A stretch of DNA of 64,000 bases. Origin: Herbidospora sakaeratensis (lineage in GTDB: Bacteria > Actinomycetota > Actinomycetes > Streptosporangiales > Streptosporangiaceae). The DNA lies in the NCBI RefSeq assembly GCF_001570525.1, contig NZ_BBXC01000008.1, positions 783,247 through 847,246 of the forward strand. The letters are read 5' to 3'. A program made the translations under genes and the position numbers. Each line of letters begins with the position of its first letter. Position 1 is the stretch's first letter. Positions 50,467 through 64,000 of this stretch are shown here, in pieces. The notes beneath the pieces are model-generated. The model searched no databases. It was not told where the DNA came from and saw only the letters and a list, made by a program, of their open reading frames with translations.

Positions 50467-50852
50467 TTGACCACCGTCACGGTGGTTCCGTCGCCGGGAG
50501 CGGTCTCGATGGCGAACTCGTCGACGAGCCGGCGGGCCCCGCCGAGCCCGAGCCCCATACCCGAGCCGCTGGTGAAGCCGTCGGTCAGCGCCTGCGCGAC
50601 GTCGGCGATGCCCGGCCCCTTGTCGCGGAAGACCGCCCGCACGCCCTTGCGGAGCCCGTTCTGGACCTGTTCGACGACGGCGCCGCCGCCCCCGCCGTAG
50701 GTGAGGGTGTTGCGGGCCAGCTCGCTGGCCGCCGTCACCAGCTTGGTCTGGTCGACGAGCGACAACTTCGCGTCGACGGCCGCCGCGCGCACCGCCTGGC
50801 GGACCCGGACGACGTCGGCGTCGCCGGCGATGGGAAGTTCCTGGACGGTCAT
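50454..50852 (-). CDS. rsbT: serine/threonine kinase RsbT (stressosome switch kinase)
   Basis: A 132-residue GHKL kinase with the RsbT signatures ASELARNTLTYGGGG, FRDKGPGIADV and SGSGMGLGLGGARRLVDEF. In the stressosome it phosphorylates RsbS and RsbR on stress, is released, and activates a downstream partner; here that is probably the fused phosphatase/kinase modules next in the operon. Its ATG overlaps rsbS by 4 bp (ATGA). Confidence 0.93.
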   Translation of the reverse strand: MTVQELPIAGDADVVRVRQAVRAAAVDAKLSLVDQTKLVTAASELARNTLTYGGGGGAVVEQVQNGLRKGVRAVFRDKGPGIADVAQALTDGFTSGSGMGLGLGGARRLVDEFAIETAPGDGTTVTVVKWAR

Positions 50853-51214
50853 CTCGCCGAGCCGCCGGCCAGGCTGAGCAGCCGCATGCCGCGCTCCACG
50901 TCGAGCGCCGTCTTGATCCCGTCGAGGGAGAGCCCGAGCTCGACCAGGGTGATCGCGACGGCCGGGCGCATGCCCACGACCACCGTGTCGGCGTCGAGCA
51001 CCCGCGACAGGGCCGCCATCGTGGCCAGCATCCGCCCGGTGAACGAGTCGACGATGTCGAGGGCGGTGATGTCGATCACGACGCCCCGCGCCCCGGTCTC
51101 GACGATCCGGTCGGCCAGGTCCTCCTGCAGCGCGACGACCATGTCGTCGCGCAGGTCGACCTGGATGGAGACCAGCAGCATCTGGCCGATCTTGAGAATG
51201 GGGAGGCGTTCCAT
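50849..51214 (-). CDS. rsbS: stressosome scaffold protein RsbS (STAS)
   Basis: A 121-residue STAS-domain protein. The phosphorylatable Ser is S57 in DIVDSFTGRM, matching S59 of the Bacillus protein. It has KIGQMLLVSIQVDL at the N-terminus and no input domain. Together with RsbR it forms the stressosome core that sequesters RsbT. The ATG at 51214 overlaps the rsbR stop in TGATG. Confidence 0.93.
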   Translation of the reverse strand: MERLPILKIGQMLLVSIQVDLRDDMVVALQEDLADRIVETGARGVVIDITALDIVDSFTGRMLATMAALSRVLDADTVVVGMRPAVAITLVELGLSLDGIKTALDVERGMRLLSLAGGSAR

Positions 51215-52053
51215 CACAGGCCGCGCTTGGACATCTCGGCCGTGACGTCGACCCCGATGCGGCCCAGGGCGAGCAGCAGCGCGTCGGCCAGCGTGGCCTT
51301 GGTGGCGATGTCGCCGAACTCGATGCCGAGCGCCACGATCGTCTGCGCGATCTGCGGCCGGATGCCCGAGATGATGCACTCGGCGCCCATCAGCCGGGCC
51401 GCCACGATCGTCTTCAGCAGGTGCTGGGCGACCTGCGTGTCGACCGCCGGGACGCCGGTGATGTCGATGATCGCGTACTCGCTGCCGGTGTCGACCAGCG
51501 TCTGCAGCAGCTTCTCCATGACGACCTGGGCGCGCGCCGAGTCGAGCGTGCCGACCAGCGGCAGCGCGACCACGCCCTGCCAGAGCTTGACCACCGGGGT
51601 GGCCAGTTCGAGCAGCTGCTCGGCCTGGTTGGAGATCACCTCTTCGCGGGCCTTCGTGTAGGTCTCGAAGGTGAACAGCCCGAGCTCGTCGATCACGTCG
51701 GAGAAGGCCGTGAACTCCGGCCCCACCCCGACCGACTCCCGCACCGCCTTCTTGAGCGCGAAGACGCTGATCGCCGTCTCACGCGGGCTGAACCCCTGCA
51801 GGGCCCGTCCCCGGGACAGGTCGACCAGCAGCGCCCGGACCTCGCCGTAGGCGGACGAGCGGGTGTCGGCCCCGTCGGCCGCGCTCATCGACGACAACAC
51901 GGCGTCGAGGATCTCCCGGAGCTCCTTGTCGAGCTCGATCTCCGAGATCCGCCCGCGCAACGACGCCGCCACGTCGGCCCGCCAACGGCGGACGAGGTCT
52001 TCCTCCGCCGCCCGGCACCGATCGATAAGGTCACCGAAAGGTTCCGAGGTCAT
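51214..52053 (-). CDS. rsbR: stressosome sensor RsbR (RsbRD N-terminal domain + STAS)
   Basis: A 279-residue protein. The N-terminal all-helical RsbRD-type sensor domain (about 1-145; EEDLVRRWRADVAASLRGRI) is joined to a C-terminal STAS domain (about 155-270) with candidate phospho-Thr residues in IDITGVPAVDT and DIATKATLADAL. First gene of the operon; ATG 52053 follows GGAGGGG. The N-terminal domain decides the signal, which is unknown. Confidence 0.92.
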   Translation of the reverse strand: MTSEPFGDLIDRCRAAEEDLVRRWRADVAASLRGRISEIELDKELREILDAVLSSMSAADGADTRSSAYGEVRALLVDLSRGRALQGFSPRETAISVFALKKAVRESVGVGPEFTAFSDVIDELGLFTFETYTKAREEVISNQAEQLLELATPVVKLWQGVVALPLVGTLDSARAQVVMEKLLQTLVDTGSEYAIIDITGVPAVDTQVAQHLLKTIVAARLMGAECIISGIRPQIAQTIVALGIEFGDIATKATLADALLLALGRIGVDVTAEMSKRGL

Positions 52054-52186
52054 GTGCCCCTCCAAGTCGTACCGGATACGCATTATTCGCGACCCCCACC
52101 CTAGAGAAGTCGCCGGGACTGCGACATGTTTCTGAATAGAGGCCTCTCTGTGGTAGGTCTTATGCGGTTACGAACAGAGGGAGATC

Positions 52187-52531
52187 ATGGACAACCTCCG
52201 GGTTCACGTGGCTCCGTCGGGGGCCTACGCCGTGATCACCGTGGCCGGGGACGTCGACGCCACCACCACAGGGCAACTGCACGAGGCCGTCACCCGGGCC
52301 CGGGAGATCTCGGCCCACCTGGTGCTCGACCTGGCCGGCATGACCTTCATGGACAGCGCCGGCATCCGCGTGCTCCTCGACGCCTTCCACCACACCCAGA
52401 CCGAGGGCGGCAGCGTCGCCCTGACCGGCCCCCGGCCCTCACCCCGGAAGGTGATGGAACTGGTCGGCCTGGCCGACCACATCCCTATCTACGACTCGCC
52501 CGCTGAGGCTGTCGCCGCCGGCCCGGCCTGA
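52187..52531 (+). CDS. STAS-domain anti-anti-sigma factor (RsbV/SpoIIAA-like)
   Basis: A 114-residue STAS protein with the regulatory Ser in MTFMDSAGIRVLLDA (the DSAG motif). When dephosphorylated, such proteins bind an anti-sigma kinase and release a sigma factor. It is divergent from the stressosome operon, which encodes two PP2C domains that could act on it; that link is an inference. RBS GAGGGAGA before ATG 52187. The 3' end overlaps the small convergent gene at 52485-52664 by 47 bp. Confidence 0.92.
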   Translation: MDNLRVHVAPSGAYAVITVAGDVDATTTGQLHEAVTRAREISAHLVLDLAGMTFMDSAGIRVLLDAFHHTQTEGGSVALTGPRPSPRKVMELVGLADHIPIYDSPAEAVAAGPA

Positions 52532-52664
52532 ACCGGGCGTTCTCCTCGGCCTCCCTGGCCTTCCGCCGCCGCCTGCCGAGGAACCATCCGGCCCCGAGCA
52601 CGGCCAGGCCGAGCGGGGTCTTCGACAACCAGCGGGTCGCGAACACCTGCAGAATTCTCTTCAT
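52485..52664 (-). CDS. 59-residue DUF6203-like small membrane protein
   Basis: A small gene in a different frame from the regulator tail that covers the same DNA. The protein starts MKRILQVFATRWLSKTPLGL, continues with one hydrophobic segment (AVLGAGWFLG) and a basic RRRRKAREAEENARFRPG tail. It resembles the short DUF6203 proteins of Streptosporangiales as I remember them. The ATG at 52664 has AGGGGCGG five bases upstream, a better RBS than most genes here. Overlaps the STAS gene tail by 47 bp and lies almost wholly inside the GlxA frame. Confidence 0.65.
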   Translation of the reverse strand: MKRILQVFATRWLSKTPLGLAVLGAGWFLGRRRRKAREAEENARFRPGRRRQPQRASRR

Positions 52665-53652
52665 GTGTACCGCCCCTGCCCTGAATCTCCGCAGGTAGAC
52701 CCGACGACACGAGATGGAACGCCCTCCTGTACGCCGAGGGCGAGGTCTTCATCGCACGGGTGAAGTGGTGCCGGAAGGTGACCGGGCTGTCGAACCCGCA
52801 GGCGGCCGCGACCTCCTCGACGGGAGTGCCGGTCCCCTCCAGGAGGGGCAGACTCGCGGCGACCCGCTGCGCGATCACCCATTTGAGCGGGCTGGTGCCC
52901 GACTTGCGGGCGAAGTGCCGCAGGAACGACCGTTCCGACATGGCGGCCTCCCGGGCCATCTCCCGCACGGAGATCGGCCGCCCCAGCCTCTGGAGGGCCC
53001 ACTCCATGGCGCGCCCGACGGCGTCCTCCTCGGTCGGGGTGACCGGCGTCTCGATGAACTGCGCCTGCCCGCCCTCCCGGTGCGGCGCGACGACCAGGCG
53101 ACGGGCGACGGCGTTGGCGACCGTGGGACCGTGGTCGGTCCTGACGAGGTGAAGCAGCAGATCGAGCCCCGCCGCGCTGCCCGCGCTGGTCAGGACATCG
53201 CCGTGGTCGACGTAGAGCACGTCGGGCGTGACGGTGACGGCGGGGAAGCGGGCCTTGAGCAGGGGGGCGTACCGCCAATGGGTGGTGGCCTCCCGCCCGT
53301 CGAGCAGCCCGGCGGCGGCCAGCGCGAACGCGCCCGAACAGATCGAGACGACCCTCGCCCCTCTGTCGTGGGCGGCCCGGAGGGCCTCGACGAGCGCGGG
53401 CGAGACCTGCCGGCGCACGTCGCGCACCCCCGGGATGACGACCGTGCCGGCCCCCTCGAAGGCGTCGAGGCCGTGGGACGGGGTGATCGTGAACCCGCCG
53501 ACGGCCCGCAGCGGTGACGTGGTCTCGGCGCAGACGGTCAGGTCGTACCACTCGACGCCGTCGGGCCGGGCGACGCTGAAGATCTCGACGACGCACCCGA
53601 GCTCGAACGGGGCCATTCCGTCGAAGGCCAGGACGGCGACACGATGGGGCAT
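52489..53652 (-). CDS. GlxA-family AraC-type transcriptional regulator with abnormal C-terminal tail
   Basis: A 387-residue regulator: DJ-1/PfpI-like domain (1-190; VVSICSGAFALAAAGLLDGREATTHW) and AraC HTH pair (about 215-310; MSERSFLRHFARKSGTSPLKWV and CGFDSPVTFRHHF). The family normally ends soon after AYRRAF (near 312). Here the frame stays open for about 70 more residues of Arg/Gly/Ala-rich, non-conserved sequence that overlaps a plausible small gene in another frame. A lost stop codon or a recent indel is likely. Divergent from the rhodanese gene. ATG 53652 lacks a clear RBS. Confidence 0.85.
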   Translation of the reverse strand: MPHRVAVLAFDGMAPFELGCVVEIFSVARPDGVEWYDLTVCAETTSPLRAVGGFTITPSHGLDAFEGAGTVVIPGVRDVRRQVSPALVEALRAAHDRGARVVSICSGAFALAAAGLLDGREATTHWRYAPLLKARFPAVTVTPDVLYVDHGDVLTSAGSAAGLDLLLHLVRTDHGPTVANAVARRLVVAPHREGGQAQFIETPVTPTEEDAVGRAMEWALQRLGRPISVREMAREAAMSERSFLRHFARKSGTSPLKWVIAQRVAASLPLLEGTGTPVEEVAAACGFDSPVTFRHHFTRAMKTSPSAYRRAFHLVSSGLPAEIQGRGGTHEENSAGVRDPLVVEDPARPGRARGRMVPRQAAAEGQGGRGERPVQAGPAATASAGES

Positions 53653-53706
53653 GGCGGAATCTTAACGAAAGGGGGCGTTTCCGCCACTCCTACCGGTGTG
53701 GGGTGG

Positions 53707-53725
53707 TGCGGCAGGCTTTGCCGCA
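53707..53725. promoter_or_regulatory. 7-bp inverted repeat at the rhodanese start codon
   Basis: TGCGGCA (53707-53713) and TGCCGCA (53719-53725) with a 5-nt spacer end on the first base of the rhodanese ATG, where a Shine-Dalgarno would be expected but is missing. It could be an operator or a hairpin controlling initiation. Confidence 0.35.
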
Positions 53726-54216
53726 TGTCAGCGATTCTGCGTACCCCAGCCGCCTCCCCCGCCGTCGCCTTCGCCCACTTCGCGGGCCGGTTGGCGGTGG
53801 AGACCGACGTGGCCGACGTGGCCCGCGACCTGGCCGAGGGGGTGAGCGGGGTGGTCGTGGTGGACGTCCGCAGCAAGGAGAGCTGGGACCAGGGGCACGT
53901 GCCAGGGGCGGTGCACATTCCGGTCAGCGAGATCGCCTCGGCGACGTTGCCGTTCGACCAGGTGATCGTCGTCTACTGCTGGAGCCCGGGGTGCAACGGG
54001 GCCCAGCAGGGCGGAGCCGCTTTTGCGCGGCTGGGGTATCGGGTCAAGGAGATGATCGGGGGGTTCGAGTACTGGGCCAAGGAGGGGTTCCCGGTCGAGC
54101 TGAGGGACGGGACGGTTCGGCGGCGGGCGGTGGATCCCCTGGTCGGGAACCTGTCAGCGGAGGGTGCCGAAGGTCCAGTGGGGGGCGTAGGGGTGGGGGT
54201 GGCCGGCGGGGGTTGA
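53725..54216 (+). CDS. rhodanese-like domain protein
   Basis: A 163-residue protein: rhodanese fold (about 30-130) with VVVVDVRSKESWDQGHVPGAVHIP, the active-site loop YCWSPGCNGAQQGG with Cys at the expected position, and LGYRVKEMIGGFEYWAKEGFP. Such proteins transfer or carry sulfane sulfur. The divergent GlxA-type regulator is the likely controller. The C-terminus becomes Gly/Val-rich. No clear RBS before ATG 53725. Confidence 0.88.
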   Translation: MSAILRTPAASPAVAFAHFAGRLAVETDVADVARDLAEGVSGVVVVDVRSKESWDQGHVPGAVHIPVSEIASATLPFDQVIVVYCWSPGCNGAQQGGAAFARLGYRVKEMIGGFEYWAKEGFPVELRDGTVRRRAVDPLVGNLSAEGAEGPVGGVGVGVAGGG

Positions 54217-54294
54217 GCGTTGCCTGTAGGTGGTGTGGTGACGGGGGAGGTCGCGGAGCAGGGCTGCGATGCGGGTTTTGACGGTGGTCGTCAT
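54154..54294 (-). CDS. possible 46-residue small basic protein
   Basis: ATG 54294 is preceded by GAAGGA five bases upstream and opens a frame MTTTVKTRIAALLRDLPRHH... rich in His, Arg and Pro, ending TLR at 54154. It overlaps the rhodanese 3' end by 63 bp. I recognise nothing in it; the good RBS is the only argument for it. Confidence 0.35.
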   Translation of the reverse strand: MTTTVKTRIAALLRDLPRHHTTYRQRSTPAGHPHPYAPHWTFGTLR

Positions 54295-54525
54295 GGGGGT
54301 CCTTCGGTGGTCACGGGGCGCCGGCTCTGGCCGGTCTTCTGGCGCGGCGCCGGTCTGTCGGCTGTCGCGCGGTCTCCCGTCTGGGCGGCGGGGACTTAGG
54401 TAGAGGATGCGGGGCCTGACTTGGGGCGGGTTTGGTCTCCGCTTGATGAGGACTGGGAGGGCCGGTCGGGGCGCTTCCCCGTCCCAGGCACCCTCCTCAG
54501 TCCGATAGACTCGTCTCACACCTTC

Positions 54526-54598
54526 GGGGCTATAGCGCAGCTGGTAGCGCACCTCCATGGCATGGAGGGGGTCAGGGGTTCGAATCCCCTTAGCTCCA
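54526..54598 (+). tRNA. tRNA-Ala (anticodon GGC)
   Basis: Seventy-three nucleotides forming a full cloverleaf: acceptor GGGGCTA/TAGCTCC with one G-T pair, D-arm GCGCAGCTGGTAGCGC, anticodon stem CCTCC/GGAGG with loop ATGGCAT (anticodon GGC, reading GCC), and T-arm AGGGGTTCGAATCCCCT. CCA is not encoded. Its 3' end begins the first copy of a repeat family found three more times downstream. Confidence 0.95.
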
Positions 54599-54857
54599 CG
54601 GGTAACGGGATGGCTCGTGGTTGTTGGCCCTTCGGGACCAACTGTCACGAGTCATTTCCCGTTTCTGCACACGGGGGGACGACCCCCCGAACCCCCCGAT
54701 ACGAGAGGGCTGTCGCCCCCTCGCGCTCCCCCGGCCGCTTTGCGGCCCTGCGTCGCTTTGCTCCGGGTCGCTTCGCTCCTGGCGAAGGGCTTCGCCCCTC
54801 GCGCTCCCCGATAGGGCCTCGCTCCGCTCGGACTGATCTCGCTTCGCTCGTTATTGG
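54590..54857 (+). repeat. hairpin-rich dispersed repeat, copy 1 (starts in tRNA-Ala)
   Basis: Starts with TTAGCTCCAC of the tRNA 3' end. Next comes a hairpin (GGCTCGTG ... CACGAGTC around a CCCTTCGGG tip) that could terminate the tRNA transcript, then GCACACGGGGGGACGACCCCCC, GAGAGGGCT...GCCCCCTCGCGCTCCC, and short TTCGCTC motifs, ending TTCGCTCGTTATTGG. No coding signal. Confidence 0.85.
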
Positions 54858-55071
54858 CTTTCAAGCCACATCCGCTCACGCTTCAGGGAGATATCTTTTA
54901 TTGACGAAAGCCGCCGCGTGCAATATTTCGTCATCATCAAACCTTGCATGAACGCCTGATCGGGGGACTCTCGACCATTCCTCGTCGGGCCTACGACTCA
55001 ACCTATTCCACGTCTTCATTTATGTTTTACACATAGCGATAACCTCGGACAGTTTCGCGAGCCCGTGGCCA
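54858..55071. other. AT-richer intergenic stretch with no gene seen
   Basis: Base composition drops clearly below that of the surroundings (TTTTATTGACG, TTTATGTTTTACACATAGCG). I see no gene, only a weak TGCAA...TTGCA pair near 54920-54950. The composition suggests transferred DNA. Confidence 0.4.
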
Positions 55072-55608
55072 TCAACCCCCTAGAGGCTCGTAGGCGAGGT
55101 CCGATTCGTTGAGCAGAGTGAAATCAGGAAGTGCGAGGGCCTCCAGCAACCGACTCAGTGCCTCCTCTGTTGAAGGGATCCGCAGACTGAGGAGTTCGGC
55201 AAGGCGGGCACGGGACGCGTTGATATCTGCATGATCGAACTCGGTTTCCAGCGCGGCTGTGGCTGATGCCATTGCCACTGCTCCATGAGGGGAGAACGCC
55301 AGGCAGTCTCTCCAGTACGGGACACACACGATCAGTTCGAGTGTGGAGGTCAGATCGTGGCCTATCACGCCGGCCTGACCTTCCGAGTCGGCGAACAGGA
55401 CGGGACGGTTGTCCGCAGCCTGGCCGCAGAGGAAGAAGGTTCCGCCGGAACCGTCACCGGCGATTGGCTCAAGGGGAGTACCGGACTCCAGGTGGACCGG
55501 CTCCACCGGATCGGTACGGGTGATGTCGAAGTCGAAAGGCCAGGCCAGTAGGGCTGCGGCATCCGGAGTGCGGTGGATGCGGTCCAGAAGGGAATCTTGG
55601 TGCGGCAT
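55072..55608 (-). CDS. hypothetical protein, possibly immunity-like
   Basis: A 178-residue acidic soluble protein with EPIAGDGSGGTFFLCG, RPVLFADSEGQAGVIG and LELIVCVPYWRDCLAF. The pattern recalls SMI1/SUKH-style immunity proteins that accumulate in accessory islands, but no toxin gene is next to it. Starts at ATG 55608. It lies between repeat copies 1 and 2. The function is not known. Confidence 0.65.
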   Translation of the reverse strand: MPHQDSLLDRIHRTPDAAALLAWPFDFDITRTDPVEPVHLESGTPLEPIAGDGSGGTFFLCGQAADNRPVLFADSEGQAGVIGHDLTSTLELIVCVPYWRDCLAFSPHGAVAMASATAALETEFDHADINASRARLAELLSLRIPSTEEALSRLLEALALPDFTLLNESDLAYEPLGG

Positions 55609-55783
55609 GGGGGGACGGTAACAGGCTTGGGCGAGGGCCGACGCACGGAAAGATCACGTGTGGGGAGATCGCCTGTTGAGTCGACGTCATCTGGATATCA
55701 GTCCAAAAATCCGTCATGGTCTGATGCTGAACTTCACACCTCTCACGATCGTCGAGGTCCGATCGTGTTCGAGTAAGCCAGCG

Positions 55784-56055
55784 TTAGCTCCACTGGTGAA
55801 TGGATGGCCCGTGGTTGTCGCCCCTTCGGGGCACCTGCCACGGGCCATTCACCATTTGCGCACACGGGGGGACGACCCCCCGAACCCCCCGACACGAGAG
55901 GGCTTCGCCCCCTCGCGCTCCCACTGGTCCGCTTTCGCGGCCCTGGCGTCGCTGTCGCTCCGGGTCGCTTCGCTCCTGGCGAAGGGCTCCGCCCCTCGCG
56001 CTCCCTGGACGGGCCTCGCTTCGCTCGGTTCGATCTCGCTTCGCTCGGTTACTGG
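55784..56055 (+). repeat. hairpin-rich dispersed repeat, copy 2
   Basis: Starts TTAGCTCCACTGGTGAATG. It then has a very stable hairpin: TGGCCCGTGG and CCACGGGCCA flank an inner GCCCC-TTCG-GGGC tip (a UUCG tetraloop). The GCACACGGGGGGACGACCCCCC block and TTCGCTC-rich segments follow as in copy 1. Nearly identical to copy 3 over its first 110 bases. Confidence 0.85.
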
Positions 56056-56116
56056 GCTCAACACCGGTTCAGGCAGGGGAAGGGCGGCTCGACCCCAGCC
56101 GGACAGGTCTCGGCCG

Positions 56117-56563
56117 TCAGCCTTGCACCTCACCAGGAAGGTCTGAGGACTCGTCAGCTTCTCCGGAGCTCGTTCGCCCTTCGACGCACTCCAGATTCAG
56201 CGCCCGAAGCTTCTTGGCGATCTCGGTCGCATCGTCGACTTTGCCGGTGGTGACGGCAATGACCAATTCTTCAGCGGCGTCGGCATCGGTGCCCACGAGG
56301 GTCTCGCCGTTGAGTTCCAGGAAAACGACGGCGCAGGTCCAGCCCAGCCGTTTGTTGCCGTCAACCAGAGGGTGGCCGATGATCAGGCTCTGCATCAGGG
56401 CCGCTGCCTTGGTCCACACATCGGCGTACGCGTCCTGGCCGAAGACACTGGTCTGCGGGCGTAGAACGGCCGCGTGCAGGAGACCACCGTCACGCAGCCC
56501 GACCGAAGGCAGGATTTCCTCGGCGATGGCCAGAACGTCGGTCGTGGTCAGATAGACCGTCAT
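56117..56563 (-). CDS. doc: Doc-type (Fic family) toxin
   Basis: A 148-residue death-on-curing toxin. The Fic motif reads HPLVDGNKRLGW, with the His and the GNKR of the Doc subgroup, and the N-terminal YLTTTDVLAIAEEIL is typical. Doc phosphorylates elongation factor Tu and blocks translation in characterised systems. Its ATG overlaps the antitoxin stop by 4 bp (ATGA), the usual antitoxin-first order. It sits between two repeat copies in the tRNA-proximal island. Confidence 0.92.
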   Translation of the reverse strand: MTVYLTTTDVLAIAEEILPSVGLRDGGLLHAAVLRPQTSVFGQDAYADVWTKAAALMQSLIIGHPLVDGNKRLGWTCAVVFLELNGETLVGTDADAAEELVIAVTTGKVDDATEIAKKLRALNLECVEGRTSSGEADESSDLPGEVQG

Positions 56564-56760
56564 TGGGACAGACGGCGCAGAAGTTCCGCGTCCCGCTGGG
56601 CGACTTTACGGGCGATGGCCCGCACCGCGCTCGTCTGACGGCGGGCCAAGTGCTCCTCGATCGCGATCACGATCTCGGTGTTCAGGCTGTTGCCGTCCTC
56701 TTCGGCCACGGCCCGCAGCCGACCATGAACCTCATCAGGCAGCCTCAGTCGAAGTTCCAT
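56560..56760 (-). CDS. ribbon-helix-helix antitoxin of the Doc pair
   Basis: A 66-residue protein with an N-terminal Arc/RHH fold (MELRLRLPDEVHGRLRAVAE ... SLNTEIVIAIEEHL) that should bind DNA as a dimer and autoregulate the operon. The C-terminal tail (RKVAQRDAELLRRLSQ) would neutralise the toxin. ATG 56760; GGAGG lies about 12 bases upstream, a little far. The operator at 56768-56788 overlaps this leader. Confidence 0.85.
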   Translation of the reverse strand: MELRLRLPDEVHGRLRAVAEEDGNSLNTEIVIAIEEHLARRQTSAVRAIARKVAQRDAELLRRLSQ

Positions 56761-56767
56761 TCCATGA

Positions 56768-56788
56768 TGATACCTCCAAGCGGTATCA
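56768..56788. promoter_or_regulatory. operator of the doc toxin-antitoxin operon
   Basis: TGATACC (56768-56774) and GGTATCA (56782-56788) form a perfect inverted repeat with a 7-nt spacer immediately upstream of the antitoxin start. It is well placed for RHH autorepression. Confidence 0.6.
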
Positions 56789-56841
56789 AATAGTGGGGTC
56801 ACCTCGGACGCGGCGAAGTGCCGGGTTCGACCAAGCGAGCG

Positions 56842-56994
56842 TTAGCTCCACTGGTGAATGAATGGCCCGTGGTTGTTGCCCCTTCGGGGCACCTGCCACG
56901 GGCCATTCACCTTTTGCGCACACGGGGGGACGCCCCCCCGATACGAGAGGGCTTCGCCCCCTCGCGCTCCCTGGACTGGCCTCGCTTCGCTCGA
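56842..56994 (+). repeat. hairpin-rich dispersed repeat, copy 3 (shortened)
   Basis: Same start as copy 2 (TTAGCTCCACTGGTGAATG) and the same UUCG-tipped hairpin. It lacks the middle CGAACCCCCCG and the GCTTTCGCGGCC...CTCCTGGCG segments, so it is a shorter version, ending CTCGCTTCGCTCG. Confidence 0.85.
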
Positions 56995-57661
56995 TCGTCT
57001 GGATCGAAGGTCTCCATCGGCTACACGTCAATGCTTTGGTCGGCTTTGGCGCCGGACCGGAACTCGGAGCCGAGCTTGTCTTGCTCGTAATGTGAACAAC
57101 CATGTCAGGCGCAATAACTTTTGCGACCCATTTTCGGCCTGCCTATTCAACTTCATTGAGCGAGCGGAGCCCTATCGCGTCCGCGAATACTGGGTCCATT
57201 CGCTGGAGGGTCGTATATCGTAGATGGCAGGATCCGCTTTTCAGAAGTTACGGGTGGACGCCCCCTGTCCACGGTCAACTATAGCGCCCTAAGTCGTTGG
57301 GCTCTTCTTTCTCTATGGCGATTGATGGGCGCGCGGAGCCAAACAGGAGGCAACGGCTCTTCCAACGATCACGGGCTTGAGCCGGTGATACGGGCGACGG
57401 AATCGGGATGGTTGCGATCGCCACTCATGTTCGAGACGAACGATTGACGGACTTCGCAAGGGACTTGGTCATCTTCGAGGTTCCGCTGGGTTGCGGGGCG
57501 CCCCTGCACGGAGCGACATCACCGGAGGGACGGTCTCTGTCGTGTGAATTTCCGTGTGAGCTCCCCCTTTCCGCATTCGGTAATACGACGTACTCCGGCG
57601 GTGACGGCACCGTTGTACTCCTGGCGTGACAACCGTCGCATTTCCCAGGAAGGCAACAATC
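56995..57661. other. intergenic stretch, possible gene remnant, otherwise nothing recognised
   Basis: No convincing gene. One plus-strand frame ends at 57223 with a protein-like stretch (FIERAEPYRVREYWVHSLEG), perhaps the tail of a decayed gene. A short frame at 57408-57629 has no recognisable features. The last 60 bases contain the promoter region of the next gene. Confidence 0.3.
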
Positions 57662-58213
57662 GTGACAATCAAGAACGGTCTCCGCGCGCTGGCAATGGGA
57701 GCTCTGCTCGCCATCCCCCTCGCGGCCGTCAGCGCCACGCCCGCGATGGCCGCCACCAATGTGGTGGCGTCCGGCGGGCAGTTGTTCGTCAGCGCGGGGT
57801 TCGCCGGCGACGACATCTCCATCAACGTCGAAGACGGTTTCCTCGTCGTCAGGAACTTCAACGACGCCATCTTCGCGGGCAGCGTCACCTGCACGAACGT
57901 CGACCCCCGCACGGTCCGGTGCGCTGGCACGGGCATCACCAAGATGCTGGTGCGCACCAACACGGGGGCCGACACGGTGCGGAACAACACCGCCCTCCCG
58001 ACCCAGGCCTTTCTCGGGCCGGACGGCGACCTCTACTACGGCGGCTCGGCCCGCGACCTCGTCTCAGGCGAGGGCGGCAACGACCTCATGGACGGCAACG
58101 GGGGCAACGACGTCCTGATGGGCGACGAGGGCGGATTCGACCAGGTCTTCGGCGGTCCGGGCACCGACCTGTGCACGGCCGAGAACGAGACCACCTGCGA
58201 GGGGGACGCATAA
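57662..58213 (+). CDS. secreted RTX-like calcium-binding protein
   Basis: A 183-residue exported protein. Sec signal peptide (about 1-32; ALAMGALLAIPLAAVSATPAMA), a beta-rich middle, and a C-terminal run of haemolysin-type nonapeptide repeats (GEGGNDLMDGNGGNDVLMGDEGG) that should bind Ca2+, closed by a Cys pair. GTG 57662 has AGGAAGG about 9 bases upstream; the GTG at 57626 would lengthen the signal peptide. Unlike true RTX toxins it has no catalytic domain. Function unknown. Confidence 0.8.
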   Translation: MTIKNGLRALAMGALLAIPLAAVSATPAMAATNVVASGGQLFVSAGFAGDDISINVEDGFLVVRNFNDAIFAGSVTCTNVDPRTVRCAGTGITKMLVRTNTGADTVRNNTALPTQAFLGPDGDLYYGGSARDLVSGEGGNDLMDGNGGNDVLMGDEGGFDQVFGGPGTDLCTAENETTCEGDA

Positions 58214-58407
58214 CACCGAAGGACATCGGGCTGGACCGGCTCCCCGGGTCGCCGAGGGCAGGCGGCCTCGCTTGAACCGGGCTGTCGGCCGATCTCGTCG
58301 CCGCCCCGGGGTTCGCGCGGCTCGACCCGCAGTGTGGCGTGTTCACTCCGGGCCAGACGCCATCATTCATGAGACATCTCGATCCGGCTGATCCAAGTGA
58401 ACGAGCG

Positions 58408-58587
58408 TCAGCTCCACTCTCGGAACGGCTCGTGGTTGACGCCCTTGGGGCGGCTGTCACGAGCTGTTCCTCGTTTACACCGAGCTCGCCCCCTCGCGCT
58501 CCCCTGCGCCGCATTCGCGTCCCGGCGTCGCTCCGTTCCGAGGTCGCTCTCGCTCCCTGACAGGGCCTCGCTTCGCTCGTTATTGGG
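58408..58587 (+). repeat. hairpin-rich dispersed repeat, copy 4 (diverged)
   Basis: Starts TCAGCTCCACTC. The hairpin GGCTCGTGG...CACGAGC around a CCCTTGGGG tip corresponds to copy 1, followed by CGCCCCCTCGCGCTCCC and CTTCGCTCGTTATTGGG, the same end as copy 1. Confidence 0.75.
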
Positions 58588-58606
58588 TCCCAGGTCAGGC
58601 GCGCGT

Positions 58607-59407
58607 TTACTCAGACGATTTGTCATGACTGACGTTTGGGACTTCGTCGTTCTCGACGTACTTACGGCCAGGCCATCGCCATGCGTTGCCGCGACGTCGG
58701 GAAAATGAAAGCATCAGTTCAGGCGGAATGATCGCTGTCCGGCGAGCGTGGACTGTTCGCGGGAGGCGACGGGCGAACTCGGCCTCGTCCTCGAAATCCC
58801 AGTCGTCGCCGTGAGGTGACGCCGGGTGCTCCGTCTCGATGCCGGGGAGCAAGGGAAACCTGCTGTGTGCTCCCTTCGACTCCGCGCGTTCATACAGGTC
58901 GTCTCGGCCGGTCGCTTTCTTATAGGCGTGGAGGGCGGCGTACTGCATCAGTTCGAACTCGGGATATTCGTCGTACGCCCACGGGTCCCGGCGGGTCTTG
59001 GTGATCCTGATCAGCCGGAAGGCTCCTCCCCTCGACCAGGACGTATGCCGGTGGCCGTGGAAGAAGAACTGTTCGAGTTCGAGGAGACGGCGGACTTGCG
59101 GGAGGTCGATCAAGGCGTCCGGGTCGTCGGCGACGGACTCGTAGGCGTTGCGGCCCAGGCTGATCAACCAGGAAACGAAATATTCGAACCCATTGGTGCC
59201 AGGCAGGCCCAGAGTCGACCAGGCCGACGCCCACATGTCGTATGAGCAGGCGCGATTGGCCATCGCGATCCATTGGCATCTGAAGTCGACCATCTCTTCG
59301 GCAGGTAGGGCGACGAGGCGATCTTCCAGAACACGAAGCCGCTCGGCGCGGTTCCTGGACTCGCGCGCGGAGTCTTCGATCAGATCCCAGAAGCCGTTGA
59401 CGTCCAT
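58607..59407 (-). CDS. DUF4240 domain protein
   Basis: A 266-residue soluble protein. The N-terminal half matches DUF4240 (MDVNGFWDLIEDSARESR, PAEEMVDFRCQWIAMANRACSYDMW with the domain's Trp/Tyr pattern, GTNGFEYFVSWLISLGRNAY). The C-terminal part (DWDFEDEAEFARRLPR) is poorly conserved. ATG 59407 gives the normal family start. Function unknown; related proteins often occur in accessory regions. Confidence 0.8.
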   Translation of the reverse strand: MDVNGFWDLIEDSARESRNRAERLRVLEDRLVALPAEEMVDFRCQWIAMANRACSYDMWASAWSTLGLPGTNGFEYFVSWLISLGRNAYESVADDPDALIDLPQVRRLLELEQFFFHGHRHTSWSRGGAFRLIRITKTRRDPWAYDEYPEFELMQYAALHAYKKATGRDDLYERAESKGAHSRFPLLPGIETEHPASPHGDDWDFEDEAEFARRLPRTVHARRTAIIPPELMLSFSRRRGNAWRWPGRKYVENDEVPNVSHDKSSE

Positions 59408-59638
59408 GAGAGGAGATTGTGCAGGAAACCCCGCGCGAAGCCGGCCCGTGGAAACGAACCACGTTTTGCGTAATCTGCGGGAATGGCCGTCCATTTCGCC
59501 CTCGAACTCCCTCGCTTCGCTCGATTGCCGTTGTGCAGGTAGATCCGAATAGCGCCGTACCCCGCCTTCGGTGCACACTGCGCGCGGGTCCGAGGTTCCG
59601 CGCGCAGCAGCACCACGATTCGCGTCACGCCCGATCGT

Positions 59639-60301
59639 CTACCTCGGCGGCCGCGGCGTCGTCGGCAGGCAGGCGCGCACGCCTCCTTCCGCCCCCCGGT
59701 TGAAGAAGGCGATGCGTTGCTCGGCGGAGCCGTGGTCGCCGACGTCGGTCCACGGGGTGCGGTCGCCCATGCGGCGCAGGGCGGCGCGGAGTTCGGCCAC
59801 GTCGCCGTCCTCGAAGAGGAGCGTCTTCTGGGCCGCGGCGCCGAACAGTACGGCGCCGGCGAAGCAGTCGGCCTGGAGTTCCTGGGCGCGGGGTACCAGG
59901 GAGCGCTGGATCCTGGCCTGGACGGCGTGGCCCCACTCGTGGGCGATGACGAGGTAGACCCAGGCGTCACCGGAACGGTAGCCGCTGGCCATGAGGTCGA
60001 AGTCCCAGGCGATGAAGTCGCCGGGCACGCAGTAGAAGGCGTTGCCGAAGCCGGTGCGGCTACCGCCGCAGGCCGGCGGCTGCCGTACGCCCCGCCGGAA
60101 GGAGCCGAAGACCTTGGGGGGCTGATAGGCGCCGGTGAAGAAGCTGGACCAGTTGCGGGCCCAGTAAGCGTTCGTCACGTTGATCGCGGTGGTCATGTCG
60201 GCGTTGATGTCGTCGGGAACGCGCGGCGCCGCGTTCGCCGGGGCGGCTATGAGCAGGGACGATGTCAGGAGTGCGGCAAGGGCCGCCGATCGGATGCGCA
60301 T
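59639..60301 (-). CDS. secreted neutral zinc metallopeptidase-like protein
   Basis: A 220-residue exported protein: Sec signal peptide (about 1-25, SLLIAAPANA-AP) and a YpfJ-type neutral zinc peptidase domain with the HEWGH zinc motif in LVIAHEWGHAVQ, the downstream third-ligand region QELQADCFAGA, and two Cys that could be linked. ATG 60301 gives the clean signal peptide; ATG 60337 is an alternative. It is on the same strand as, and 116 bp downstream of, the radical SAM gene, so it could be part of the RiPP operon (for example as a leader protease) or unrelated. Confidence 0.8.
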   Translation of the reverse strand: MRIRSAALAALLTSSLLIAAPANAAPRVPDDINADMTTAINVTNAYWARNWSSFFTGAYQPPKVFGSFRRGVRQPPACGGSRTGFGNAFYCVPGDFIAWDFDLMASGYRSGDAWVYLVIAHEWGHAVQARIQRSLVPRAQELQADCFAGAVLFGAAAQKTLLFEDGDVAELRAALRRMGDRTPWTDVGDHGSAEQRIAFFNRGAEGGVRACLPTTPRPPR

Positions 60302-60417
60302 GGAGGTCCCGGTGTCCGTGGGGGAATGGGACTCCATTGGAAACGACCTCGCGCAGAGGCGAATGTGGCGTTTTTCATAGATGCGCGAACGATGTCAGAT
60401 GCGCATCGATGGTTTCA

Positions 60418-61437
60418 CTACAACACGGGGAATTCGGGGCGGCGGCTGATTCGTTCGCGGACGGCGGTGGTGCCGAAACGCTGGTCGATGAGGCGTGCCG
60501 CCTCGGCCCACTGCTTCATGGTCTTCACCCCGCTCAGGGCGTTCGTGACGAAGGGGTCGCTCCATCGGGCCTTCGCGCGTTTCCACAACACGTCGGGGGG
60601 ATCGCTGAGAACGTTTCCCACCGTTCCCTCGTAGATGGGCATCGCCCGCACCTCTCCGTCCGGTTCGATTTGCAGGACGTTGAAGACGATGCCGCGGGCC
60701 ACCAATTCGGGGTGCATCTGCAGGATGCGGTTGTCGGTCGTGCCCACCGTCACCGAGGCGGGTGCGAGGGCTCGTAGCCGCTGGGCGTGGCCCGGGTCGT
60801 TCAACTGCTTGATCTGTTCCTCGGTGAGCAGTTCGTGTTCGTCGAATCGTGCACGGCTTGCCAGGCCTCCCGGTACGGCCGCTCCGAAGGCGACGAATCG
60901 GAGATGGCCGAACCGGGGCGCGATGGTCTCGCAGAACAGCTCCATCTGCTGGAAGTTGCTCTGCAACAGGATGCAGTCGATGCCGAAGTTGAGGGGTCGC
61001 TCCGCGCCGACCTCGTCCAGAATCGTCAGCGCGCGCATCGCGCGGGAGAACGAGCCCTGCCTGCCGCGGATGCGGTCGTGCACCTCGGGGGTCGCGCCGT
61101 CGACGCTGACCACGATCTTGTCGCAGACGTCGGCCAGTTTCCGGGCGGTGTCGTGGTCCATCAGCCAGCCGCTGGTGTAGACGGCGACCTTCAGGCCGGC
61201 GGCGGCCATGCGTTCGATGACCTGGATCAGGTTCGGGATCAGCAGCGGTTCGCCTCCGGCGATCGAGACCCCGTGCGGCCGCATGGCGGCGATGGCCTCG
61301 GCGACGCGCAGCATGCCGTCCTCGCTCAATCGTCGTGCGGGCCGCCGGCCCGACTCCGAATAGCAGTGGACGCACCGCAGCGGGCAAGCGTAGGTGATGT
61401 CCCAGATCACCTCGTCGGGGCCTTCGTGACTTTCCAT
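60418..61437 (-). CDS. radical SAM enzyme of the RiPP cluster (no SPASM)
   Basis: A 339-residue radical S-adenosylmethionine enzyme. The [4Fe-4S] motif is CPLRCVHC within VIWDITYACPLRC; SIAGGEPLL is the SAM-contacting GGE motif, and VSVDGATPEVHDRIRG is the usual middle signature. The C-terminal third has no Cys cluster, so no SPASM or twitch auxiliary cluster is present. The ATG at 61437 has AAGGAG seven bases upstream and overlaps the peptidase stop by 31 bp. It probably installs a radical modification (for example a C-C or thioether link, epimerisation or methylation) on the precursor encoded at 63204. The exact chemistry is unknown. Confidence 0.9.
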   Translation of the reverse strand: MESHEGPDEVIWDITYACPLRCVHCYSESGRRPARRLSEDGMLRVAEAIAAMRPHGVSIAGGEPLLIPNLIQVIERMAAAGLKVAVYTSGWLMDHDTARKLADVCDKIVVSVDGATPEVHDRIRGRQGSFSRAMRALTILDEVGAERPLNFGIDCILLQSNFQQMELFCETIAPRFGHLRFVAFGAAVPGGLASRARFDEHELLTEEQIKQLNDPGHAQRLRALAPASVTVGTTDNRILQMHPELVARGIVFNVLQIEPDGEVRAMPIYEGTVGNVLSDPPDVLWKRAKARWSDPFVTNALSGVKTMKQWAEAARLIDQRFGTTAVRERISRRPEFPVL

Positions 61438-63131
61438 TTCGTTTCTCCTTGAGCTGCAGTCGGTTGATCGCCGGGGGTGAGCAGGAAGTCCACGACCTCG
61501 TCGAGCAGGGCCCGGCCGCCCCGGCTGGTCAGCGGGTAGTGCGCTCCGCCGGCTATCTCGCGGTAGACGAACCGGCGGTTCGCCGTCAGCCGCTGTGCCA
61601 GGGCGCGCGAGTGCTCCACCGGGATGACGTGGTCCCGCTCGCCGTGGATGACCATGGTGGGCGCCTGGATCCGGGGGCCCAGGCGGAGCAGGTCTCGTGG
61701 GCCGAGGTCGTCGTCGAGGTCGGTACGGCCGCCCAGCCGGTCGAGCAGCGACCGCACTGCGGGCGAGCCGTCGGCGTACAGGCGGGAGCCCGACAGGAAG
61801 GGGCCGACCACCACGCACCTCGACCACGTCGGCGGGTCGGCGGCGGCGGCCAGCAGGGCCAGGAACGCGCCGTACGACGCGCCGAACAGCAGGGGCGCCC
61901 TGCCGACGGCGGCGGCGAGGTGGCGGATGTCGGCCAGATCGGGGCCGCCCCACTGGTCCACGATGGCGGCTCGATGCGCGGGCCCGTAGCCGGTGCTGCC
62001 GCGCTGGTTGGGCGCGATCACGCTGATTCCGGCCTGGGCGAAACGCTGGAGGGTGGGGTCGAAGCCGAGGTCCCAGGCGGCTTCGGGGCCGCCGTGCAGC
62101 GCGATGAGCACGTGTTCGGCTCGCCGCCAGTCGGGACCGTAGACGACGGCCTCCATCGTCCCGGCGGGCCCGTCGAAGCGTTCGAGCCGGGCGTCGCACC
62201 AGGGCGTGTCGTGTCCGTCCGCCCACTCCGCGACCCCGGACGGGTCGACGGCGAGCACGCCGGAGGGATGCGCGGGGGCGGAGTAGCCGAAGCGCAGCGT
62301 GTCCTTGGTCCAGGCGCTCGCGAACCCGATCACCCCTGGTGGAATCGGCTGCTCGCGCACCTGGTCGGCACGCCGCTCGTGGATCAGCAGGCGGGAACGT
62401 GCTCCGTCGGTGACCTTCAGCGCGAGCCGGTCCCCCGACGGGTCGACGGCCAGCGGCGACACGGCGCCCCTGATGTCGTTCAGTTCGCGCGGCAGGTGAA
62501 CATGCGGGTCGCCGGGGGTGAGCCAGCCCAGCCGCACGCCGTCCGTGACCAGCACGTCCCCCGTCGCGGGGGACGACAGCAGGACCGCGCCCCCGTCGTG
62601 GGCGAACGGGGTCACGGCTCCGCTCGTCAGATCCAGGACGACGGCCCGGCGTTCGCCGTCGACGATCTGATCGGCCGCGAGCCGGCGGCCGTCAGGCGTG
62701 AGGCGGCACTCCTTCGTGATCATCCCCGGCAGGCCCAGGACCGGTTCGAGGCCCTCGCCGGTGAGCCGCTGGATGACCGTGTTGCCGTTCGTGTACGCCA
62801 CCAGCATGGCCGCCACGTCCGGATCGGGGCTTGGAAAGGCGCGCAACCTCTCGGCTCGCACCGTGGCCACCCGATGCGCGACGTGGCCGCCGTCGGACGG
62901 GGTGATGACGGTGACCTCATGGGCGCCGGATCCGGGCCGCAGCAGGACGATCTCTCCGTCCTCCGCCGGAGTCACCTGCGCCGGTAACCCGGTCGTGGCG
63001 ACCCGCCGGACGTCCGCGTGCCCCCGCTCGAACGACCACGCCTCAACGGCGATCCGGCCGTCGCCGTCGATGGTCAGGCAGGCGGCGTGGTCCCCCCGCG
63101 CGGAGAATCGCAGGCTGACTCGATGAACCAT
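61407..63131 (-). CDS. S9 family peptidase (prolyl oligopeptidase type)
   Basis: A 574-residue cytoplasmic serine peptidase: an N-terminal seven-bladed propeller-like region (about 1-315) and an alpha/beta-hydrolase domain (about 325-560) with Ser in LLFGASYGAFLALL, Asp in HGERDHVIP and His in GGAHYPL. Prolyl oligopeptidases cut after Pro, and in class III lanthipeptide pathways (flavipeptin) such an enzyme removes the leader. Here the precursor has Pro at positions 12, 16 and 23. ATG 63131 follows AAGGGGGCGAC. Separated from the precursor by a strong hairpin. Confidence 0.9.
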   Translation of the reverse strand: MVHRVSLRFSARGDHAACLTIDGDGRIAVEAWSFERGHADVRRVATTGLPAQVTPAEDGEIVLLRPGSGAHEVTVITPSDGGHVAHRVATVRAERLRAFPSPDPDVAAMLVAYTNGNTVIQRLTGEGLEPVLGLPGMITKECRLTPDGRRLAADQIVDGERRAVVLDLTSGAVTPFAHDGGAVLLSSPATGDVLVTDGVRLGWLTPGDPHVHLPRELNDIRGAVSPLAVDPSGDRLALKVTDGARSRLLIHERRADQVREQPIPPGVIGFASAWTKDTLRFGYSAPAHPSGVLAVDPSGVAEWADGHDTPWCDARLERFDGPAGTMEAVVYGPDWRRAEHVLIALHGGPEAAWDLGFDPTLQRFAQAGISVIAPNQRGSTGYGPAHRAAIVDQWGGPDLADIRHLAAAVGRAPLLFGASYGAFLALLAAAADPPTWSRCVVVGPFLSGSRLYADGSPAVRSLLDRLGGRTDLDDDLGPRDLLRLGPRIQAPTMVIHGERDHVIPVEHSRALAQRLTANRRFVYREIAGGAHYPLTSRGGRALLDEVVDFLLTPGDQPTAAQGETKWKVTKAPTR

Positions 63132-63157
63132 GTCGCCCCCTTCGATGGATTCAGGAG

Positions 63158-63189
63158 GTGCCGGTCTCTCCCGAGCGAGAGACCGGCAC
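63158..63189 (-). promoter_or_regulatory. strong hairpin between precursor and peptidase genes
   Basis: Perfect 13-bp stem, GTGCCGGTCTCTC (63158-63170) and GAGAGACCGGCAC (63177-63189), with a 6-nt loop and no U-tract. Placed 14 nt past the precursor stop, it probably acts as a partial terminator or mRNA-end stabiliser that keeps precursor transcript in excess, as in other RiPP operons. Confidence 0.7.
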
Positions 63190-63203
63190 GATAAGAATTC
63201 CGG

Positions 63204-63326
63204 CTAGATCGTCGAACCCTGGTATTCACAGGTGATGATCAGACACGTCGCGAAGCACGGGTAAAGGCCCACACCCGTGGGGTCTTCAGCCGGCAGCGTG
63301 TCCAACGCCATGATGTCGATCTCCAT
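63204..63326 (-). CDS. RiPP precursor peptide (lanthipeptide-like)
   Basis: A 40-residue peptide. The leader is MEIDIMALDTLPAEDP (1-16) and the predicted core is TGVGLYPCFATCLIITCEY plus QGSTI (17-40), with three Cys (24, 28, 33) and Ser/Thr at 17, 27, 32, 38 and 39. The leader style (acidic, LPxxDP before the core) resembles class IV venezuelin-type and class III AmfS-type precursors. The ATG overlaps the cyclase stop in TGATG, and the RBS GGGAGGTGAT, seven bases upstream, is close to ideal. The 3' hairpin favours excess precursor. Cleavage after Pro16 by the S9 peptidase would release the core; this is inferred. Confidence 0.85.
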   Translation of the reverse strand: MEIDIMALDTLPAEDPTGVGLYPCFATCLIITCEYQGSTI

Positions 63327-64000
63327 CAGAAATCACCTCCCTCCCTGCTGAGATTCGGAACCGCGCCGCGAAAGCGGGCAACGGGGAACCATGGCCGCGG
63401 ACCGCCGTGCCGCAGCCGAATGAGAAAGCACAGAACCCCGGAAAGGCCGTTGCCGAAGTAGGCGTAGCTGTCGGTGCCGGACACATCGGGGAGCACCTGG
63501 CGGCCGTTCACGTGAAAACGCCGCAGATGAGCTACTCGGACGAGCTCGTGCGCCCATTCGCGATAACGCGGATTCCCGGTGGCCTCGGCCAGGTCGAGCA
63601 GGAACTCACCACCGCCGGCCAGGCCGCAACATTGGCCGAGCATCGTCGACCATTGAGATCGGCGAATCGCCGTGGCGGCCTGGTCGAGCAGCGGGTGAAT
63701 GTCTTTGTCGCCGGTCTGTCGCCACATCTGGAGCAGGAAGGCCGCCACGCCGCTCGATCCGCTGCACCAGCGGGTGTGCGGGGTTTCGTCGCCGGGGCCG
63801 ACGCCCCAGTAGGCGGCGTCGTCCTCTATCCGCGCGGCCGACACGAGCGTGTCAGCCGCCTCGGCCGCGAGGTCGACGTACAGGCTGTCGTCGAGTGCCC
63901 GCCCTGCGGCGAGCAGGAAGGCCGCGATGCCCGCCGTCCCATGGGCGAAGCCGTAGTGGACGACGCCCGCCAGGGAAGAGGTGAAATCCCGCGGGATCGG
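63326..64000 (-). CDS. LanC-type lanthionine cyclase domain (partial, runs off the right edge)
   Basis: 224 C-terminal residues are visible; the frame is open to base 64000, so the start lies outside. LanC repeats are seen as YGFAHGTAGIAAFLLA, TRWCSGSSGVAAFLL, CCGLAGGGEFLLDLAE and FGNGLSGVLCFLIRL. The Cys of WCSG and both Cys of CCG stand where zinc ligands are found, with Cys-Cys in place of the usual Cys-His. Zinc binding argues against class III LanKC and for a class IV LanL, class II LanM or stand-alone LanC. The domain adds Cys thiols to dehydrated Ser/Thr of the precursor. Its stop overlaps the precursor start. Confidence 0.88.
   Translation of the reverse strand, partial: PIPRDFTSSLAGVVHYGFAHGTAGIAAFLLAAGRALDDSLYVDLAAEAADTLVSAARIEDDAAYWGVGPGDETPHTRWCSGSSGVAAFLLQMWRQTGDKDIHPLLDQAATAIRRSQWSTMLGQCCGLAGGGEFLLDLAEATGNPRYREWAHELVRVAHLRRFHVNGRQVLPDVSGTDSYAYFGNGLSGVLCFLIRLRHGGPRPWFPVARFRGAVPNLSREGGDF

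Follow-up and report, generated by a model that had tools for sequence, protein, structure and literature searches.

Class IV lanthipeptides such as venezuelin and SflA (PMC9576775) are made from precursors of the ALQxL type by a synthetase of LanL architecture. Walker et al. 2020 state that secondary modifications had not been reported for this class, and mention radical S-adenosylmethionine (rSAM; PF04055) genes in lanthipeptide clusters in general terms (PMC7268733). Class III clusters for flavipeptin (FlaP) and noursin (NorP) combine an S9 peptidase with synthetase and precursor (PMC10885120, PMC10206099); noursin owes its His cross-link to NorKC itself (PMC11002830), and no rSAM gene is listed for the nor cluster (PMC10206099). 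The 64,000-nt stretch analysed here (the window; contig NZ_BBXC01000008.1 of Herbidospora sakaeratensis, forward-strand positions 783,247 to 847,246) carries at its right end four minus-strand genes in the order lanL–lanA–S9 peptidase–rSAM, which we read as a minimal cluster for a class IV lanthipeptide plus one additional modifying enzyme. It shares the LanL architecture and ALQxL precursor with venezuelin and SflA and the S9 peptidase with flavipeptin and noursin; unlike the latter two its synthetase is of class IV, and unlike described class IV systems it contains an rSAM gene whose presence is coupled to an aromatic residue and a following proline in the core. Taking cluster type and site jointly, we consider it probable that this is a class IV lanthipeptide cluster whose rSAM enzyme acts at the aromatic-Pro site.

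The window holds only the 3' end of lanL (Table 1), which continues past the right edge, as had been anticipated, up to G000:C8 849274 and completes a single 900-aa open reading frame (ORF; locus L005:4573-7275, same contig). The full protein unites RamC_N (18–202; N-terminal, lyase-like), Pkinase (229–477) and LANC_like (535–879) domains, which answers in the affirmative whether the cyclase gene also encodes lyase and kinase domains, a question raised by the original prediction. It scores 1088.9 bits against the class IV synthetase model NF038150 (cut-off 650) and 458.3 bits against the class III synthetase model, under the cut-off of 575; with the class IV leader of the precursor, this retains the class IV half of an assignment first given as class III/IV and removes the class III half. 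A stand-alone LanC-like protein, or an unrelated one of eukaryotic type, is ruled out because the gene encodes a full LanL over the NF038150 cut-off. The cyclase sequence contains WCSG and QCCG motifs, read from the sequence as candidate zinc ligands; the S9 peptidase contains a GASYG nucleophile motif and matches PF12146 (53.1 bits) slightly above PF00326, and the precursor includes Pro12 and Pro16, candidate positions for cleavage after Pro. The arrangement originally described, with a 31-nt overlap of the rSAM and S9 genes, one nucleotide shared by the precursor gene and lanL, and a hairpin-bearing gap, is correct in its coordinates, as are the identities of the LanC domain, the 40-residue precursor, the S9 peptidase and the rSAM enzyme (family matches LANC_like, NF038157, Peptidase_S9 and Radical_SAM).

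Table 1. Features of the lanthipeptide cluster at the right end of the window
Feature	Position in window	Strand	Details
rSAM gene	60418-61437	minus	ATG start, 339 aa; CxxxCxxC at residues 18-25; PF04055 Radical_SAM 85.2 bits
S9 (prolyl-oligopeptidase family) serine peptidase gene	61407-63131	minus	574 aa; Peptidase_S9 (PF00326) 52.4 bits, cut-off 22.6
Hairpin between precursor and peptidase genes	63158-63189	minus	13-bp stem; from folding, z -2.8; no T run after stem
lanA precursor, MEIDIMALDTLPAEDPTGVGLYPCFATCLIITCEYQGSTI	63204-63326	minus	40 aa; NF038157 (ALQxL family class IV lanthipeptide) 27.3 bits, cut-off 19
Tyr22-Pro23-Cys24 codons (aromatic-Pro-Cys motif of lanA; proposed rSAM site)	63255-63263	minus	Read from sequence; motif tracks rSAM across clusters
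lanL 3' end (class IV lanthionine synthetase, LanC domain)	63326-64000, open at window edge	minus	LANC_like 98.9 bits

The same four genes stand in the same order in Acrocarpospora pleiomorpha (L129; L037 is the same contig) and Thermocatellispora tengchongensis (L130; L038), with identities to the window's proteins of 88–90% for rSAM, 84–86% for LanL, 83–84% for the S9 peptidase and 90–98% for the precursor. As the four genes keep their order in two further genera, the set is beyond chance, and these two closest loci retain both the precursor and the rSAM gene, whose loss in relatives would have told against the cluster as first proposed. At E 1e-30 the rSAM gene has no homologue in any of the six further genomes of the genus to which the window belongs, a pattern suggestive of horizontal arrival or repeated loss. 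Within the window's GTDB family, 30 of 341 genomes, counting that of the window, contain one at E 1e-40 or better. A class-wide draw for the precursor family was positive in 8 of 394 genomes, six of them from the window's own family. A scan that took a single genome from each species, with an alignment of 20 sequences as query, confirmed 110 relatives of the rSAM enzyme, from which 76 named loci were kept (73 from Actinomycetota, one from Hyalangium, two from Microvirga). In a neighbourhood search of the kind proposed in the original prediction, 62 of these 76 loci have a class IV or class III synthetase (LanL or LanKC) within ~10 kb of the rSAM gene, as do 26 of the 30 loci from the window's GTDB family, a set that overlaps the 76. 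Some homologues do sit beside unrelated genes, e.g. a helicase or a penicillin amidase homologue, as would be expected if the enzyme were simply a neighbour with another job in cofactor or sugar metabolism, but the 31-nt gene overlap, the four genes shared with two other genera and the 62 synthetase neighbourhoods make this very improbable.

The feature that accompanies the rSAM gene is an aromatic residue and proline placed just before the first core Cys (LYPC, LWPC, LFPC, AHPC), or WP with a Cys a few residues later; the window's lanA has YP, while WP, FP and HP occur elsewhere. Precursors were chosen by leader motif, upstream purines, Cys and Ser/Thr, with the same criteria for clusters with and without rSAM, and scored for [YWFH]P before the first core Cys. 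Where a precursor was found, the motif was present in 30/30 class IV and 30/30 class III rSAM-positive clusters, compared to 0/24 and 0/13 rSAM-negative ones (Fisher 7e-16 and 2.7e-11 respectively, uncorrected for relatedness). This count covered 130 of 154 loci after removal of duplicates; L122 was dropped as its LanL is that of L065, and L058/L196 and L059/L157 are one cluster each, fetched twice, giving a stricter class IV count of 28/28. The rSAM-negative loci were picked as such, L096–L128 from contigs with a precursor match and without an rSAM match there, and L225–L238 from LanKC matches away from rSAM places; seven of the control set (L111, L116, L122, L123, L125, L127, L128) provided no usable synthetase row of their own. 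Of 297 genomes of the window's family, 181 contain class III synthetase matches, which are thus so common that most of them are distant class III controls only. A later set of eleven class IV loci, retrieved with LanL as the sole query and showing no rSAM gene in the 19.5 kb fetched, scored 0/11 for the motif (L250 and L251 are near-copies, and L260 matches LanKC slightly better than LanL). Among 40 class IV peptides from rSAM-negative clusters, nine have Pro preceding the first Cys and none has aromatic-Pro there. The nearest contrast is in class III, where rSAM-positive L141 and L148 read ...ALTAHPCYSHVTSYAGTC and rSAM-negative L225, whose LanKC is 74% identical to the L041 query, reads ...AQQAGCYSHVTSYKGTC, the peptides being near-identical otherwise.

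The precursor search was confined to the synthetase strand and returned a few plainly spurious picks (L005 MRIVHND..., L195 MNSTVG...), with no precursor in 9 of 69 rSAM-positive rows. The motif was then seen in L153 and L053 by a wider or both-strand look and in L160 and L167 by eye; L065 contains non-motif peptides only, L187 none, and L174, L184 and L197 stop at a contig end. With the misses inspected in this way, the motif is present in 32/33 class IV and 32/32 class III rSAM-positive clusters. Three rSAM-negative rows in which the search found no precursor (L100, L109, L227) hold only non-motif peptides.

Rows with and without rSAM intermingle on both synthetase trees, from which L184, L197 and L174 were excluded as too short. 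The rSAM label needs 11 changes on the class IV tree (59 rows), at least seven of them on starred branches, and five on the class III tree (47 rows), at least four on starred branches. Independent contrasts, taken as non-overlapping starred paths, agreed with the motif in 6/6 class IV cases (p 0.031) and 4/4 class III cases (p 0.125), or 10/10 combined (sign test ~0.002); L065 carried no motif state in this test. Because the coupling of rSAM and motif is repeated, phylogenetically independent and found in two synthetase classes with different leaders, the aromatic-Pro site is most likely what the enzyme modifies. Neither the S9 peptidase nor the ATP-binding cassette (ABC) exporter explains the motif, both genes being present in class IV clusters without it, and the same is true of cytochrome P450, which is present in L225 (no motif) as well as in L146 and L148 (motif).

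A number of observations weigh against this interpretation. L065 is an rSAM-positive class IV cluster (LanL, S9, ABC, rSAM) whose leader-like peptides (GLAAC, ARCC) lack the motif, only one of them lying beside LanL (L065:1095-1220, divergent strand) and two ~7 kb upstream (L122 8540-8824); on account of this exception our joint confidence in cluster type and site was lowered slightly. Three peptides of multi-precursor rSAM-positive clusters also lack it (LRSC in L149; LMAC in L196/L058, one cluster), although their sister peptides carry it. Under a laxer criterion that accepted [YWFH]P at any place within the first 25 residues of the core, rSAM-negative L102 and L106 also scored (CFPKVSC, with FP after the first Cys), and the stipulation 'before first Cys' was fixed after these had been seen. 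The rSAM gene and precursor may travel as a cassette, so that independent events would be far fewer than the raw counts; no LanL or LanKC was found in 14 of the 76 named loci, these 14 being annotated in part (nine proteins); and the peptide product is a prediction from the genes.

Movement as a cassette is also what would be expected if the motif served leader cleavage, export or the target of the product, and were simply co-inherited with an rSAM enzyme acting elsewhere in the core. The position of the motif at the core start, close to leader cut sites, and the lack of a motif peptide in L065 fit such co-inheritance. We nevertheless regard it as improbable, since many rSAM-negative clusters have related S9 and ABC genes yet no motif, class III rSAM-positive loci, which show no match to this S9 peptidase, still carry it, and no other feature common to class III and class IV cores is apparent by eye.

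If the motif is the substrate site, as we infer, and if LanL and the S9 peptidase act as their families suggest, LanL would bind the leader (MEIDIMALDTLP...), phosphorylate and eliminate core Ser/Thr and then add Cys to form (methyl)lanthionine rings, the rSAM enzyme would modify the Tyr22-Pro23(-Cys24) site at the core start, and the S9 peptidase would likely help in leader removal. The suggestion that the rSAM enzyme may modify the peptide at all, part of the original prediction, is strengthened by the aromatic-Pro association as read across these sequences. Several precursors (L164, L173, L175, L176, L178, L183, L186, L188, L189, L191; e.g. ...LWPCANSYHST) have a single Cys ahead of the Ser/Thr that follow WPC; lanthionines from this Cys to later Ser/Thr would run opposite to the usual direction.

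We claim the site with confidence and the type of bond only weakly. The 74 distinct motif peptides have W (42), Y (13), H (11) or F (eight) at the aromatic position, never an aliphatic residue, and directly after Pro they have Cys in 69 cases and C, P, D, E or Q overall, never Gly. On this pattern, the chemistry we tentatively place first is a bond from the aromatic ring to a neighbouring residue, in the manner of a three-residue cyclophane; the requirement for one of four aromatic side chains points to a reaction on or at the ring. Enzymes known to form ring-to-C-beta cross-links take such aromatic residues: the triceptide enzymes XncB, OscB, MscB and relatives link an aromatic residue to residue i+2, with Trp and Phe as substrates (PMC11002830), and a paper title in reference lists extends this to Tyr and His. 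The motif is compatible with a link of this kind at i, i+2. They differ from the present family in being described with SPASM/twitch domains (PMC11002830), whereas here there are no conserved auxiliary cysteines, Pro is fixed at position 2 and the partner is a lanthionine synthetase.

The enzyme itself complicates the cross-link. When 73 rSAM rows from synthetase clusters (including two duplicates) were aligned, only Cys 18, 22 and 25 were invariant (73/73), C169 being Cys in 61 and C155 in 44, and no conserved auxiliary-cluster (SPASM/twitch) cysteines were found. The tail keeps EPDGxxRAxxxYEGxVGN, without cysteines, and resembles a SPASM domain. Known rSAM enzymes that form C-C bonds need auxiliary clusters, proposed as electron sinks (PMC8326336), and because this family has no conserved cysteines for them a cross-link would be unusual, a further point against the chemistry we favour.

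A redox-neutral reaction would need no auxiliary cluster, and the enzyme may instead be a peptide epimerase that inverts the aromatic residue to give a D-aromatic-L-Pro turn at the core start. D-aromatic-Pro is a good turn former, and the radical SAM cluster ligands are the only invariant ones in the family. The proteusin epimerases PoyD and OspD likewise carry just the radical SAM cluster, but they have a strictly conserved Cys as hydrogen donor and a C-terminal RiPP (ribosomally synthesized and post-translationally modified peptide) recognition element (RRE), and their substrates include Val and Ile (PMC8326336). Here, no strictly conserved donor Cys lies outside CxxxCxxC in the 73 rows, Pfam reported no RRE in the rSAM protein, and the motif admits aromatic residues only. 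Peptide epimerases are not known to be restricted to aromatic substrates, and on balance this reading, which we place second, is possible though doubtful.

The Cys that directly follows Pro in 69 of the 74 motif peptides raises instead the possibility of a thioether, of sactipeptide or ranthipeptide type, from this Cys to a carbon of the aromatic residue or of Pro, in which case the Cys would not be used for lanthionine. The rSAM structure model is confident (predicted local distance difference test, pLDDT, 84.6; predicted template modelling score, pTM, 0.86), and its best solved folds include SkfB, DesII, SuiB and viperin; the RiPP maturase SkfB is the best of these, with a template modelling score (TM) of 0.66 by query length. 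These proteins are alike in fold, but share 12–20% identity and act on other substrates. A thioether is unlikely, as in five class IV precursors the next Cys follows WP after four or seven residues, rSAM-negative clusters commonly have a first Cys at the corresponding position, and the proposed mechanisms use auxiliary clusters (PMC8326336), for which no conserved cysteines exist here. Assignment to a named NCBIfam rSAM family was rejected, all the matches listed (25 of 72) being below cut-off; the mycofactocin maturase MftC model TIGR03962, for example, gave 117 bits against a cut-off of 265. The matches from a PHROGs search were weak, generic rSAM entries among them.

A single rSAM family is thus shared by synthetases of two classes, III and IV, with different leaders. 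The two leader types, the absence of an RRE from the Pfam result and the start of the rSAM motif at residue 18 favour recognition of the core, and the whole suggests core-directed, leader-independent radical chemistry. More speculatively, a single-cluster rSAM family with a cysteine-less SPASM-like tail could make a new bond or rearrangement at aromatic-Pro in both classes independently of the leader, in which case doubly modified lanthipeptides with undescribed chemistry would be widespread; we offer this as a tentative proposal. A tailoring enzyme gained and lost several times, and linked to a short motif of the core in two synthetase classes whose leaders differ, provides some sixty ready-made enzyme-substrate pairs together with natural negative controls, and a mining rule by which aromatic-Pro before the first Cys predicts rSAM. 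The original prediction regarded the combination of rSAM with these genes as undescribed; the bare co-occurrence is not wholly new, because Walker et al. 2020 already mention it (PMC7268733), but for the specific pairing the claim holds so far, as a literature search, with most subscription journals outside its coverage and hence weak as evidence of novelty, found in the text it reached no description of the rSAM family, its class III/IV spread or the aromatic-Pro rule.

On the rSAM tree the class III/IV label needs three changes, with at least one forced by starred branches for class III. Two rSAM copies are present in each of four class IV clusters (L166, L171, L177, L180); the copies have diverged and the cores are very short (e.g. 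LFPCKCTC, LFPCCGTC), perhaps reflecting two successive steps. The class III rSAM-positive loci L173, L175, L176 and L178, and similar Streptomyces loci, have another segment that matches LanL/LanKC ~3 kb downstream, and two precursors are frequent. L143 (9678-9797) pairs an LYPC precursor with rSAM, and no synthetase was found in the 21 kb fetched. The rSAM homologue of L199 (6789-10010), one of the 14 loci without LanL or LanKC, adjoins a YcaO-TfuA protein, and that of L066 (10347-12668) a LanB-like dehydratase N-terminal domain; from these neighbours the family may also serve other peptide classes.

The hairpin of Table 1 lies in the 72-nt gap 63132-63203 between the precursor and S9 genes. 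The matching gaps of L037 and L038 also contain long stems (z -4.4 and -5.4), and a role in mRNA stability or partial termination is our guess. As to whether transporters follow, also asked at the outset, a search of L005 and of window positions 50001-64000 at E 1e-3 turned up no counterpart to the ABC exporters that related clusters carry. The Zn_peptidase gene downstream of rSAM (59639-60337) was rejected as a cluster member, having no match in the other 153 loci searched, and the eight neighbouring ORFs tested look unrelated (e.g. Zn_peptidase, DUF4240, Excalibur, DUF6000, epoxide hydrolase, WYL regulator). Plasmid carriage was likewise discarded, a tblastn search of the precursor against plasmids giving no match. 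Further from the cluster, a GC-rich intergenic repeat of ~240 nt at 54620-54860, with weaker copies at 55784-56055, 56842-56971 and 58486-58571, has 27 matches genome-wide, some of them partial, and one copy follows a tRNA-Ala gene (54526-54599). A Fic/DOC-family gene adjoins an Arc-like ribbon-helix-helix gene at 56117-56802 of the window, a possible toxin-antitoxin pair.

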